A stretch of 64,000 nt of DNA from SAR86 cluster bacterium AG-390-O18 (GTDB lineage Bacteria; Pseudomonadota; Gammaproteobacteria; Magnimaribacterales; AG-339-G14), in the NCBI GenBank assembly GCA_003279605.1, contig QCHF01000001.1:338075-402074 (forward strand), given 5' to 3'. A model generated the notes under the pieces. That model ran no database searches and was not told the origin of the DNA. It saw nothing but the letters and a program-made list of their open reading frames with translations. Of the stretch, positions 45,624 to 58,212 are shown piece after piece (within the stretch, counting starts at the first letter, position 1; each line of letters begins with the position of its first letter). Position numbers and translations under genes: made by a program.

Positions 45624-47276
45624 ATGCAAGATTTTAAAAGATTTCCAGTAATTTGTAGTGTTGGAGGCATAAACTCAGCAGGAAGATCTTCTTTTGATTT
45701 TTCATACAAACGACTTGTTATAGACAATCTTGATGCAAATTCTAAAAAATCTCTACTGAAAGACTTAAATTCTCTAACGAATTCTGAAATTTCATCAGAA
45801 AAAGATATTTTTGAGAAAACCTTAGTAAGAAAAGTTAATTCAGATCTTTTTGATCCAGATTTATTAATGAAAGATGTCATGAATGTGAATGCCGCTGGAC
45901 AATTGCCTGAAGGAATAAATCTTTCAAAGATGTATAACTCCAGACAACATCCCAAAGGAATTCAAATGACTATTTTTGGTGTTACTGATTGCTTAAGAAA
46001 TATGGGCAAGGACTGGGATACTGAAATAAAACCATTATTGGATCCAAAAAAAATAGGTGTTTTTTCTGGTCCTGCAATAGGGCAACTAGACTACGAAGGA
46101 ATGGGAGGTCTTTTACAGTCAAGAAAGATTGGTAAAAGAGCCAGTTCTAAACATTTATCAATGTCTTTGATTGGTATGTCAGCAGATTTCATAAATGCTT
46201 ATGTACTTGGATCCTTGGGAAAGACAGGGACTGTAGCTGGAGCTTGTGCAACTTTTCTCTACAACTTAGATTTGGCTTTGAAAGGAATCAAAAATAATGA
46301 ATTAGACTTTTCAATCGTTGGATCTGCAGAAGCGCCTATAAATCCAGAGATAACAGATGGCTTTTTAGCTACTACAGGAATTGCTGATGATAAAAAAGTT
46401 CTAGAAATGCAGATTAGAAATAACGATGATAACTCTGAAGAAGTAGACCATAAAAATGCTTGTCGGCCCTTTGGAGATAATGCTGGAATGATTTTGGGAG
46501 AAGCAGCTCAATTTGTAGCTGTTACGACTTTGGAATTTGCTATAAAAAACGGTCTAAAGATACTTGGTGGTTTTACAGATGTTGCAATAAATGCCGATGG
46601 CTTCAAAAAATCTATCAGTTCTCCAGGAATTGGTAACTACATAACAATGGCTCAAGCTCTTTCAAATACTTTAAAAATAGGCTGTTCCATTCAAGAAAGT
46701 ATTGTTATCGCTCATGGCACGGGGACCTTTCAAAATCGAAGTACCGAATCTGATGTACTAAATAGAGTCGCCGATGGATTTAAATTAAAAAATTGGAAGG
46801 TAACTGCTTTGAAAGGTATGTTAGGTCATACCATGGGTCCTGCTGCTGGAGATGAATTAATAACAGCTTTAGGAATTTGGAATCATGGTTTGATTCCAGG
46901 AATAAATACAACTAAGAAATTAGCTGATGATGTGTTATCAGATAATTTAGATTTTTGTCTGAATACTCAAGAAGTAGATACAGAAAAAGTAGATGCTATC
47001 TATTTAAATGCTAAAGGTTTTGGGGGCAATAATGGTTCTTGCGGCGTGGTAAGTCCAAGCTTCATCAAATCAAAAATCGATAAAAAAGATTTAAAAGATT
47101 ATGAGGAAAAACTTTCTGATACTGAAGCGAAAAGAAAAATTTATTTAGAAGAAAGTAATAATGGAAATTACGACTTAATTTATCGCTTCAAAGAGGAAGT
47201 TCTTGACCCTTCAGAAGATATGAAAATAACAATAGATAAAATATCTATCTCTGATTACAAAGATATAGATTTGTAA
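45624..47276 (+). CDS. Beta-ketoacyl synthase-like protein (550 aa)
   Basis: This thiolase-fold condensing enzyme has the full Cys-His-His set: Cys208 in VAGACATF, His364 in AHGTGTF and His402 in MLGHTMG, as in FabB/FabF-type ketosynthases. At 550 residues it is about 130 longer than FabF. The excess is an N-terminal stretch and a C-terminal tail (from about 500) with an acidic, lysine-rich character. No ACP, acyltransferase or chain-length factor is adjacent. It may condense an acyl-CoA or ACP made by the divergent synthetase (inference). Confidence 0.85.
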   Translation: MQDFKRFPVICSVGGINSAGRSSFDFSYKRLVIDNLDANSKKSLLKDLNSLTNSEISSEKDIFEKTLVRKVNSDLFDPDLLMKDVMNVNAAGQLPEGINLSKMYNSRQHPKGIQMTIFGVTDCLRNMGKDWDTEIKPLLDPKKIGVFSGPAIGQLDYEGMGGLLQSRKIGKRASSKHLSMSLIGMSADFINAYVLGSLGKTGTVAGACATFLYNLDLALKGIKNNELDFSIVGSAEAPINPEITDGFLATTGIADDKKVLEMQIRNNDDNSEEVDHKNACRPFGDNAGMILGEAAQFVAVTTLEFAIKNGLKILGGFTDVAINADGFKKSISSPGIGNYITMAQALSNTLKIGCSIQESIVIAHGTGTFQNRSTESDVLNRVADGFKLKNWKVTALKGMLGHTMGPAAGDELITALGIWNHGLIPGINTTKKLADDVLSDNLDFCLNTQEVDTEKVDAIYLNAKGFGGNNGSCGVVSPSFIKSKIDKKDLKDYEEKLSDTEAKRKIYLEESNNGNYDLIYRFKEEVLDPSEDMKITIDKISISDYKDIDL

Positions 47277-53229: not shown

Positions 53230-53250
53230 TAAAATATCCACAAGTGTTGC

Positions 53251-53292
53251 ACTTAGGTTCAATATCAGGGGTTCCTAATAAAGTGCGTTTTA
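53251..53292 (+). terminator. Possible weak terminator after the SLC13 carrier
   Basis: GCACTTAGG pairs with CCTAA-TAAAGTGC (with a small bulge) across a loop of about 16 nt, followed by GTTTTATT. The long loop makes it a doubtful terminator. It also separates the carrier from the structured element downstream. Confidence 0.3.
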
Positions 53293-53471
53293 TTCTTACC
53301 CTGTGAAGGAGGTGGTCCAAATTAGTATTAACGAATTAGCAGGAATTTCAGGGGGTGCCTCTTGACAACGGGTTAACCCGATTCCGACCTTTTGCCGGTT
53401 CGCCCGCTTAAGGTAAGAATTAAGTTGAAATACTTATTCTTAAACCCCGTCAGAAATGACGGGGTTTTTTT
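53292..53471 (+). ncRNA. Unidentified structured plus-strand RNA element
   Basis: In a gap otherwise without genes, ATTCTTACC (53292-53300) pairs perfectly with GGTAAGAAT (53412-53420), closing a domain of about 129 nt with internal helices (for example GGAAT 53342-53346 with ATTCC 53380-53384, and the palindrome CGGGTTAACCCG at 53369-53380). The 3' closing strand can instead pair with ACTTATTCTTA (53432-53442) in an 11-bp hairpin. Just after it comes a strong intrinsic terminator. Within the domain AAGGAGGTGGTCC (53306-53318) is complementary to the 3' end of 16S rRNA (13 bp including one G-U). No downstream plus-strand gene follows, so a leader or riboswitch is unlikely. I could not match it to 6S, SRP, tmRNA or RNase P RNA. 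Confidence 0.5.
53442..53471 (+). terminator. Strong intrinsic terminator, GAAA loop
   Basis: AAACCCCGTCA and TGACGGGGTTT form a perfect 11-bp stem around a GAAA tetraloop, followed by a T run. The orientation is plus. It ends the structured element and abuts the stop of the convergent SDR gene. Confidence 0.88.
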
Positions 53472-54270
53472 ATTCGCTCAAATCGTGACCAGTTGCAGAG
53501 ATGGTTCCGCCATCGCAAGTAATAGTTTCTCCAACAGTGTAAGAACCAGCTTTTGATGAAAGATATAAAGCTAAACCGCCAACATCTTCGGCTCTACCCA
53601 TTCTATGGACCGGATTTCTAGAAATAATACCTTCGTAGTTATGGGCTACTGCTGAACCCAACATATCGCTAGGAAAAGGTCCTGGGGCAATGGCATTCAC
53701 TAAAATATCTTCTCTAACAAGTCTAGCGGCGAGAACTCTTGTCATATGATGAACAGATGCTTTTGATGCGCTGTAAGGATATGTTTCAAAAACAGGAGTA
53801 CCGATGCCATCAATTGAACCTATGTTTATAACTCTAGAAGGATTTTCCCTTGTAGCTTTTTTCTTCAGCAGAGGAAGAAACTTTTGCGTAGAGAAGAATA
53901 CACTTTTGACATTCAAATCCATCACCTTATCCCAGCCTTTTTCTGAGAAAATATCTATAGGTTCCGCCCATGCTGCTCCAGCATTATTTACCAAAATATC
54001 AATCCCAGATTCTATCGCTTCTACTTCTTTTACAAACTTCTCTATTCCTTCTAGAGAAGATAAGTCAGATGGAAGAGATGTGCATTGAGCATTATATCTT
54101 TCCGAGAGTTCTATTGCTTTTGCATCACAAACATCGGCCTTTCTAGAAGTAATATAAACCGTTGCGCCGTTTGCTAAATATGCCGACGCAATCATTTCTC
54201 CTATTCCGCGAGATCCTCCAGTAACAACAGCAACTTTATCTTTTACTGAAAACAGTTCTTCAATTTTCAT
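53470..54270 (-). CDS. SDR family oxidoreductase (RhlG/FabG-like)
   Basis: The 266-residue SDR begins KIEELFSVKDKVAVVTGGSRGIGEMIA and carries NNAGAAWAEPID, the Ser of NIGSIDGIG, and the catalytic YSASK. The start segment and the C-terminal ITCDGGTISATGHDL resemble RhlG-type 3-ketoacyl reductases. GGAGA precedes the ATG. panD lies 9 nt upstream on the same strand. Confidence 0.88.
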   Translation of the reverse strand: MKIEELFSVKDKVAVVTGGSRGIGEMIASAYLANGATVYITSRKADVCDAKAIELSERYNAQCTSLPSDLSSLEGIEKFVKEVEAIESGIDILVNNAGAAWAEPIDIFSEKGWDKVMDLNVKSVFFSTQKFLPLLKKKATRENPSRVINIGSIDGIGTPVFETYPYSASKASVHHMTRVLAARLVREDILVNAIAPGPFPSDMLGSAVAHNYEGIISRNPVHRMGRAEDVGGLALYLSSKAGSYTVGETITCDGGTISATGHDLSE

Positions 54271-56580: not shown

Positions 56581-58212
56581 ATGAAACAACTAGAATCTCA
56601 ACCCTTTCAATCAAAACTAAATTTAAATTCTGAAGAATTTGAAAATAACAAGTCATCCATGCTTGAGATGATTTCTGAATTAAATGAATTATTAGATGAA
56701 GCTGAAGCTGGTGGTGGTCCAGACCATCATAAAAGATTAGCAGCAAGGGGAAAACTTCCAGTTCGAGAAAGAGTTTTCCACTTCTTGGATCCAGATAGTC
56801 CTTTTTTAGAAATTAGTGGTTTAGCGGCCTATAAATCTGAATATCCTATCGGTGGCGGTGCTTTTGCCGGTATTGGAGTTTCCTCAGGAATCGAGTGTGT
56901 AATTTTTGCAAATGATCCTACTGTTCTTGCAGGAGCAATGCATTTTTACTCTGTAAAAAAATGGATGAGATGTATGCAAATTGCGCGAGATTGTCGAATT
57001 CCTTTCATTCAATTTGTTGAATCTGCAGGAGGTGATTTGCGTCCAAGAGCCGGAGCTGCTGTTGGTGGAATGGGTCATTTTGCTGAATCAGGAAGACAAT
57101 TTTATGAAATTACGGAGCTTTCAAAACTAAACATTCCAACTGTAACTGTTGCTTTCGGAACTGCTACCGCCGGTGGAGCTTATCAACCTGGAATGTCTGA
57201 CTATAATATTTTTGTTAAAAACCAAGCAGATGTTGCCCTTGCAGGTCCGCCTCTAGTTCAAATGGCAACTGGTGAAATTTCTTCCAGAGAAGATATTGGA
57301 GGAGCAAAAATGCATGCCGAAAAATCGGGTTTAGCTGAATACCTGGCTGAGGATGACTTAGACGGGATAAGAATTGCTCGAGAAGTAATGTCCCATCTAA
57401 ATTGGGACAAAGAAGGAAATAATCCTCGATTTGAAATAAATCCTCCAAAATACAGTCAAGAAGACTTATTGGGAATTATCGAGCCTAGTCTAAAGACTCC
57501 TTTTGATATCAGGGAAATAATCGGTCGTATTGCTGATGAATCTAAGTTCGAAGAATTCAAACCGCTTTTTGGACCGACAATAATTTGTGGTTTTATTTCC
57601 ATTCATGGATACCCAGTTGGTGTGCTAGGTAATAACGGTATGCTTTTTCCCGATGCTTCTCAAAAAGCAGCTCACTTCATACAACTATGTAATAAAAGAA
57701 ATTTGCCTTTGGTTTTTCTTCAAAATATCACTGGATTTATGGTCGGAAAAGATTACGAGCAAGATGGTTCTATTAAAAAAGGAGCTCAAATGTTAAATGC
57801 TGTTTCCAACTCAAATGTTCCGCATCTTACAGTGATAGTAGGTAATTCATATGGGGCTGGAACTTATGCAATGTCTGGAAGAGAATTTGGGAATTCTTTC
57901 ACTTTTCTATGGCCAACTGCAAAAATTGCGGTCATGGGTGGAGAAGTTATCGCAGGAGTAATGTCTATCGTAAGAAGAGGCCAAGCTGCAAGAAAAGGTC
58001 TTAAATTTGATGAAAAAGCTGATGCAGAAATTGTTAAAAATCAACAAATCTCACATGACAAGGGCTCCAAAGCTTTGAGAGCTACAAGCGTTATCAGTGA
58101 TGACGGAATTATAGATCCTCGAGATACAAGAAATGTATTGGGGATGTGTTTATCGATTGTTAATAATAAAGAAGTTAAAGGATCAGAAGGATTTGGAGTA
58201 TTTAGGTTATGA
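56581..58212 (+). CDS. Acyl-CoA carboxylase, carboxyltransferase (beta) subunit
   Basis: The 543-residue subunit transfers the carboxyl group from biotin to an acyl-CoA. Signatures: RLAARGKLPVRERV, the oxyanion-type FVESAGGDLRPRAG, ATAGGAYQPGMSDYNIFV, the GPPLVQMATGE segment, and GNSYGAGTYAMSGREF in the second half. The GHFAESGRQFYEITELSKL region differs from the classic methylcrotonyl-CoA (LiuB) pattern and looks nearer geranyl-CoA carboxylase or related AtuC-type subunits (inference). Its end overlaps the biotin subunit gene by 4 nt. AtuA and an enoyl-CoA hydratase converge on it. Confidence 0.88.
   Translation: MKQLESQPFQSKLNLNSEEFENNKSSMLEMISELNELLDEAEAGGGPDHHKRLAARGKLPVRERVFHFLDPDSPFLEISGLAAYKSEYPIGGGAFAGIGVSSGIECVIFANDPTVLAGAMHFYSVKKWMRCMQIARDCRIPFIQFVESAGGDLRPRAGAAVGGMGHFAESGRQFYEITELSKLNIPTVTVAFGTATAGGAYQPGMSDYNIFVKNQADVALAGPPLVQMATGEISSREDIGGAKMHAEKSGLAEYLAEDDLDGIRIAREVMSHLNWDKEGNNPRFEINPPKYSQEDLLGIIEPSLKTPFDIREIIGRIADESKFEEFKPLFGPTIICGFISIHGYPVGVLGNNGMLFPDASQKAAHFIQLCNKRNLPLVFLQNITGFMVGKDYEQDGSIKKGAQMLNAVSNSNVPHLTVIVGNSYGAGTYAMSGREFGNSFTFLWPTAKIAVMGGEVIAGVMSIVRRGQAARKGLKFDEKADAEIVKNQQISHDKGSKALRATSVISDDGIIDPRDTRNVLGMCLSIVNNKEVKGSEGFGVFRL

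Follow-up and report, generated by a model that had tools for sequence, protein, structure and literature searches.

A knotted, putatively translated small RNA conserved in the SAR86 order

The locus, its transcription signals and its occurrence

The window analysed here, a 64,000-nt stretch of DNA from a 1.28-Mb SAR86 genome, carries at 53242-53474 of its forward strand an RNA element of about 230 nt (Table 1). SAR86 ranks with the most abundant bacteria of surface seawater and has tiny genomes with little non-coding sequence, and the RNA is kept in nearly every SAR86 genus despite this scarcity of non-coding DNA.

Table 1. Predicted features of the RNA and its transcription signals, in window coordinates
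Feature	Position	Strand	Remarks
-10-like box TAAAAT	53230..53235	+	predicted start site; RNA 5' end about 53242-53244
P0a GUGUU, RNA 5' terminus	53244..53248	+	pairs with 53364-53368 around the stop codon
P1 5' arm GCACUUAGG	53249..53257	+	covarying helix
P2a CAGGG in P1 loop (pseudoknot)	53266..53270	+	pairs with 53299-53303
P1 3' arm CCU...AAGUGC	53274..53286	+	covarying helix
P2b CCCUG	53299..53303	+	partner of P2a
Extended Shine-Dalgarno site AAGGAGGUGGUCCA	53306..53319	+	14 nt, one G.U wobble, to the SAR86 16S tail
14-codon micro-ORF, AUU start, UGA stop	53321..53365	+	predicted product (f)M/I-SINELAGISGGAS
P3 5' arm GGAAU (ORF codons 8-9)	53342..53346	+	covariation
P0b GACAA, overlapping the UGA stop	53364..53368	+	partner of P0a
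P6 hairpin CGGGUUAACCCG	53369..53380	+	families f1/f2 only; CGGG/CCCG versus AGGG/CCCU in relatives, by inspection
P3 3' arm AUUCC	53381..53385	+	covariation
P4 hairpin	53387..53414	+	by inspection of 40 representatives
P7 hairpin, AGUUGARAUACU core	53414..53442	+	families f1/f2 only; by inspection
Intrinsic terminator	53442..53474	+	hairpin 53442-53467 found in the window; homolog comparison

Both ends of the predicted transcript are marked by signals that recur among its relatives. In the 10-nt slot corresponding to the -10-like box, at least five of six positions match TATAAT in 89 of 129 homologs (61 at one offset), against 23 homologs in a slot 60 nt further upstream that served as control, and because the box stands 14 nt ahead of P0a in 61 of the 129, the transcript 5' end should be P0a itself. 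A terminator-like site lies within 180 nt past the stop codon in 127 of 129 homologs, compared with 5 of 225 control slices. The gene downstream in the window, which belongs to family f1, is an antisense SDR gene, and neighbours on both sides differ between families, with other genes, often antisense, in family f2 and in the outgroups. Since the downstream neighbour varies and the RNA has a promoter and a terminator of its own, these computational signals show a predicted stand-alone gene.

The first-pass annotation of this DNA had also favoured a structured RNA standing alone over a cis leader; the terminator hairpin and the lack of a following plus-strand gene that it described are both borne out in the window's genome, and its start was set about 50 nt too far downstream of the one given in Table 1. 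Two of the four SAR86 families, f3 and f4, have an EamA/DMT-type transporter gene directly 3' of the RNA (for example at L027, L029, L034 and L084). Conservation of a same-strand downstream gene, as expected of a cis leader or riboswitch, is thus confined to f3 and f4. Of 40 representatives, 28, belonging to these two families, have the EamA gene next on the plus strand, beyond the terminator, which would suit a cis-regulatory leader or attenuator of the downstream gene that became detached in the other families; yet in f1, f2 and the outgroups the neighbour is different or antisense while RNA, ORF and terminator persist, the RNA is fully conserved where no gene follows, and the shared EamA neighbour may be plain inheritance by sister families. 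We consider such an origin highly improbable, although a cis effect on the EamA gene within f3 and f4 is possible.

Searches with covariance model R1 located the RNA in 137 of 203 genomes of the SAR86 order (proposed Magnimaribacterales), including 35 of 40 high-quality genomes and 21 of 22 genera, as a single copy per genome, and a DNA search among near relatives recovered the locus in 34 of 61. A scan of 84,980 species genomes for the pattern GGAGGTGRTC N1-4 ATTARTAT N28-40 TGAC returned 117 matches, and among the matches listed (80) all were SAR86 or uncultured marine Gammaproteobacteria. Retention of the anti-16S block, the Shine-Dalgarno (SD) site, throughout the order places it beyond chance. 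Outside the order, five genomes in two other small gammaproteobacterial orders (24 and 13 genomes examined) carry the RNA: G500 and G253 were recovered by R1, G574, G576 and G596 by pattern searches around those two, and rescoring with R1 in one further search matched all five, at 26.9-41 bits. We rejected one R1 match that sits within a transporter gene (L191) and six pattern matches at which the RNA is absent (L221-L225 and L215), and a search of 398 Pseudomonadota with model R2 gave marginal matches, all without the SD block, that we judged to be chance. Viral, phage or plasmid origin was likewise dismissed, as matches of these kinds were looked for and none was found: the pattern above is absent from viral contigs, and three viral matches to another pattern are ordinary gene starts.

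In Rfam 15 no family reached the gathering cut-off with the window, which was also searched at E<=10, or with 8 SAR86 loci and 5 further loci; what matched were tRNAs or sub-threshold chance and terminator matches. The first-pass annotation, which had assigned the RNA to no family and proposed this search, agrees with that outcome, and judged by Rfam 15 and the open-access papers searched, the RNA represents a new family.

The predicted fold

Comparison of homologs shows a predicted knotted fold in which the RNA 5' end pairs around the stop codon (P0), the loop of P1 pairs with the segment upstream of the SD site (P2) and ORF codons 8-9 pair with a 3' segment (P3). In alignment A2 (66 sequences), 86.9% of the cells of P0, P1, P2 and P3 are paired, against 69.1% in shuffled and 39-45% in slid controls, with 320 two-sided-change cells against 112 shuffled and a covariation score of 0.466 against 0.163 shuffled and at most 0.11 slid, totals that favour P1 and P3, which were part of the aligning model. 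P0 and P2 alone, which lie outside that model, are 81.4% paired against 36-49% when slid and show 35 two-sided cells against 19.6 shuffled (0/500), yet 21 with a +1 slide, and we regard the covariation support for these two helices as moderate. With the outgroups added and structure ignored in aligning (alignment A3), two-sided change is seen in 10 cells of P0, compared with 3.2 after shuffling and no more than 1 after sliding.

The individual helices change sequence while remaining paired. All 11 pairs of P1 have both-sided changes, as do four of the five pairs of P3, where 95.6% of cells are paired, and P2 occurs by clade as CAGGG/CCCUG, AAGGG/CCCUU or GAGA/UCUC. P0 is weak in the window's genus, with 4 bp including one G.U, and its GUC/GAC core is paired in every aligned SAR86 copy. 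The outgroups form 5 bp with other letters: GCGUC/GACGC accompanies a UGA stop, GCGUU/AACGC a UAA stop. G500 ends its ORF with UAA and has U in place of C as the pairing base, so that P0 changes along with the stop codon.

Relatives thus supply the conservation and covarying pairs that the first-pass annotation had named as a check, and its claim of a real structured RNA stands, although it missed the conserved fold and the ORF. The 9-bp perfect match that it took for a closing stem (53292-53300/53412-53420) is present in the window but is not a conserved feature, as 40 distinct relatives average 5.4 bp with native partners and 5.7 bp with swapped ones; the two-state switch of exclusive pairings, which rested on this stem, falls with it. 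What it called an alternative hairpin is P7, located between P4 and the terminator, which has a near-invariant AGUUGAGAUACU core and is absent from f3, f4 and the outgroups. An SD-sequestering hairpin, seen in the minimum-energy fold, was rejected as a general feature, since neither family f4 nor the outgroups can form it.

The extended Shine-Dalgarno site and the micro-ORF

Upstream of the ORF lies a long complement to the SAR86 16S tail, TGGATCACCTCCTT (...GGCTGGATCACCTCCTT), a tail that we read from four relatives and did not find in the window's own draft genome. The first-pass annotation had reported complementarity of AAGGAGGTGGTCC over 13 nt (53306-53318); the pairing is real and extends over 14 nt (53306-53319) with one G.U. 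It is the longest anti-16S match in the window, and GGAGGUGRU(C/U) is kept in all copies, outgroups included. A 13-nt anti-16S match with wobbles, AGGAGGTGATTTG, also occurs at 57027-57039, inside a carboxylase ORF (56581-58212), so the length of such a match is by itself no proof. The complementarity is best read as a predicted extended SD site, correctly spaced, of the 14-codon ORF, so that among the roles first suggested a coding small RNA stands and a bare ribosome sponge does not.

The ORF is defined by its fixed length. UGA lies 42 nt from AUU in 147 of 147 pattern-found loci, in a search that allowed 36-48, while the spacer between SD and AUU varies from 2 to 4 nt, which indicates a frame set from AUU onward. 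SAR86 copies start with AUU apart from two with AUC (L198, L199). AUC starts are seen in G130 and in the divergent order member G070, whose ORF is a 39-nt version with an in-frame codon loss. Among the variants at L198, L199, L202 and L207 are an AUC start, UUU or AAU in place of AGU at codon 2, and one ORF of 13 codons. An upstream GTG was rejected as start, because a spacer of 2 or 4 nt, as many copies have, puts it out of frame, and an RF2-type frameshift site (AGGGGG...UGAC) is unsupported, as the codon ahead of UGA varies (UUU, UUC, UCU, UGC, AUC, GCC). At the sequence level, SAR86 copies have the marks of an IF3-regulated start, namely a conserved codon other than AUG, GUG or UUG behind a strong SD site. 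IF3 represses non-canonical starts such as those of infC and sigR (PMC5472188), and AUU and AUA starts with extended SDs are used in S. aureus (PMC13009471).

Openness of the frame is under strong selection. Frame-0 stops number 0 in 66 distinct ORFs, where column shuffles predict 26, and 0 in the 27 ORFs at <=90% identity, where they predict 11.5; a tree-based simulation expects 46 +/- 26, with none of its 1000 replicates free of them. In frames 1 and 2 stops are as numerous as expected, with no depletion, and no sequence had been removed from the collection for containing a stop. Changes within SAR86 fall equally on codon positions 1, 2 and 3 (74/87/79), and neither BLOSUM similarity nor the synonymous fraction exceeds a column-independent null, a comparison of limited power on 14 codons. 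Purifying selection on residues is therefore not detectable within SAR86, and it looks as though translation, rather than residues, is selected.

One rival explanation is a trap for small subunits. In such a ribosome-sequestering RNA the extended SD site, found in every copy and in the outgroups, would hold 30S subunits, the structured flanks would keep the molecule in the mRNA channel and release of the ribosome would be the ORF's sole task; AUU is a poor initiator, and the stretch from the SD site to codon 7, the sole long unpaired one, would be about as long as the mRNA channel. A trap has no need, however, of a stop-free 14-codon frame with a fixed stop position, and a single gene copy per genome would demand very high expression, so we hold this explanation to be unlikely.

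The outgroups bear instead on the possibility of a micropeptide gene, a small mRNA that would make a functional 14-residue peptide under the control of a structured leader and the extended SD site. The ORFs of the five outgroup genomes also have 14 codons, with an AUG start and a UGA or UAA stop, and their peptides (MSNECINGASGGTC, MSNDSMCAASGATC, MSHRCIIGFSGGAC, MSNRCIIGAPGGTC and MSNRCMYRTSGGTC) have the consensus M-S-N-x-C-x-x-G-x-S-G-G-T-C and align with SAR86 ISINELAGISGGAS and ISIKTNSGLLGGNC; the SAR86 peptide resembles them in S2, G8, GG and a small/Cys end. Together with the selected open frame, this speaks for a functional product. Within SAR86, however, amino-acid similarity and synonymous bias show no surplus, codons 4-7 accept nearly any residue, and many conserved residues fall on paired or SD-like bases, with P3 inside the ORF, and we find a micropeptide gene doubtful.

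Proposed function and relation to known RNAs

The reading that we prefer, with a probability of roughly 0.45, is that of an independent regulatory RNA serving as a readout of translation, its fold being reset by a ribosome on the micro-ORF, which would probably work through being translated rather than through its peptide. A 30S subunit would dock at the exposed extended SD site and initiate at AUU, an IF3-disfavoured codon for which the long SD would compensate; the 70S ribosome would then cross the 14 codons as far as UGA, and in doing so melt P3 and P0 and release the RNA 5' end, whereas with few initiations the RNA would remain knotted. The two states may have different stabilities or different access to a trans target, and the RNA would thereby report initiation capacity, that is, free 30S subunits or IF3, with the peptide dispensable in SAR86.

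A bolder form of this proposal, which we offer tentatively, is that the RNA founds a new class of translation-gated RNAs in which ribosome transit over a content-free ORF is itself the signal, sensing initiation capacity without a peptide by means of an AUU start reached through an extended SD site and a stop codon with which the 5' end of the RNA itself pairs. If the preferred reading is right, what preserves the open frame would be translation as such and not its product, an AUU start would be conserved order-wide, and a stop codon would serve as base-pairing partner of the transcript 5' end. A SAR86 isolate now exists (PMC11582366).

By analogy, the RNA would be a dual-function or translated small RNA with putative trans activity. 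The base-pairing sRNAs SgrS/SgrT, AzuCR and VcdRP, which encode proteins of 28-43 aa (PMC8672173), are likewise short, stand-alone, terminated RNAs with a tiny ORF in the same molecule, and the predicted promoter and terminator of the SAR86 RNA accord with that layout; it differs from them in its 14 codons, non-AUG start, extended SD, pseudoknots and a stop paired to the 5' end. It shares with infC, sigR and cvfC1 a non-canonical start, AUU (or AUC) in that type, rescued by a strong or extended SD site (PMC13009471, PMC5472188), but those starts belong to ordinary protein genes, whereas this one lies inside a structured small RNA and opens a 14-codon ORF.

Two further comparisons concern pseudoknots. 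The pseudoknotted ribosome sites of the alpha operon and S15 mRNAs entrap the 30S subunit, precede ribosomal-protein genes and are bound by the protein in question; the SAR86 RNA resembles them in having a pseudoknot beside a ribosome-binding site but precedes no ribosomal-protein gene. In layout only, it is analogous to tmRNA, another structured, pseudoknotted RNA, in which the ribosome reads a very short internal ORF; it lacks a tRNA-like domain, however, and matches no Rfam family. The element matches neither the tmRNA (RF00023) nor the 6S RNA (RF00013) model, and the window's genome has a normal tmRNA elsewhere (184 bits). Contig 2 of the same genome has a weak 6S candidate (47071-47242, minus strand), which scores 41.4 bits against the Rfam cut-off of 46.4; the 6S RNA of SAR86 seems to be divergent.
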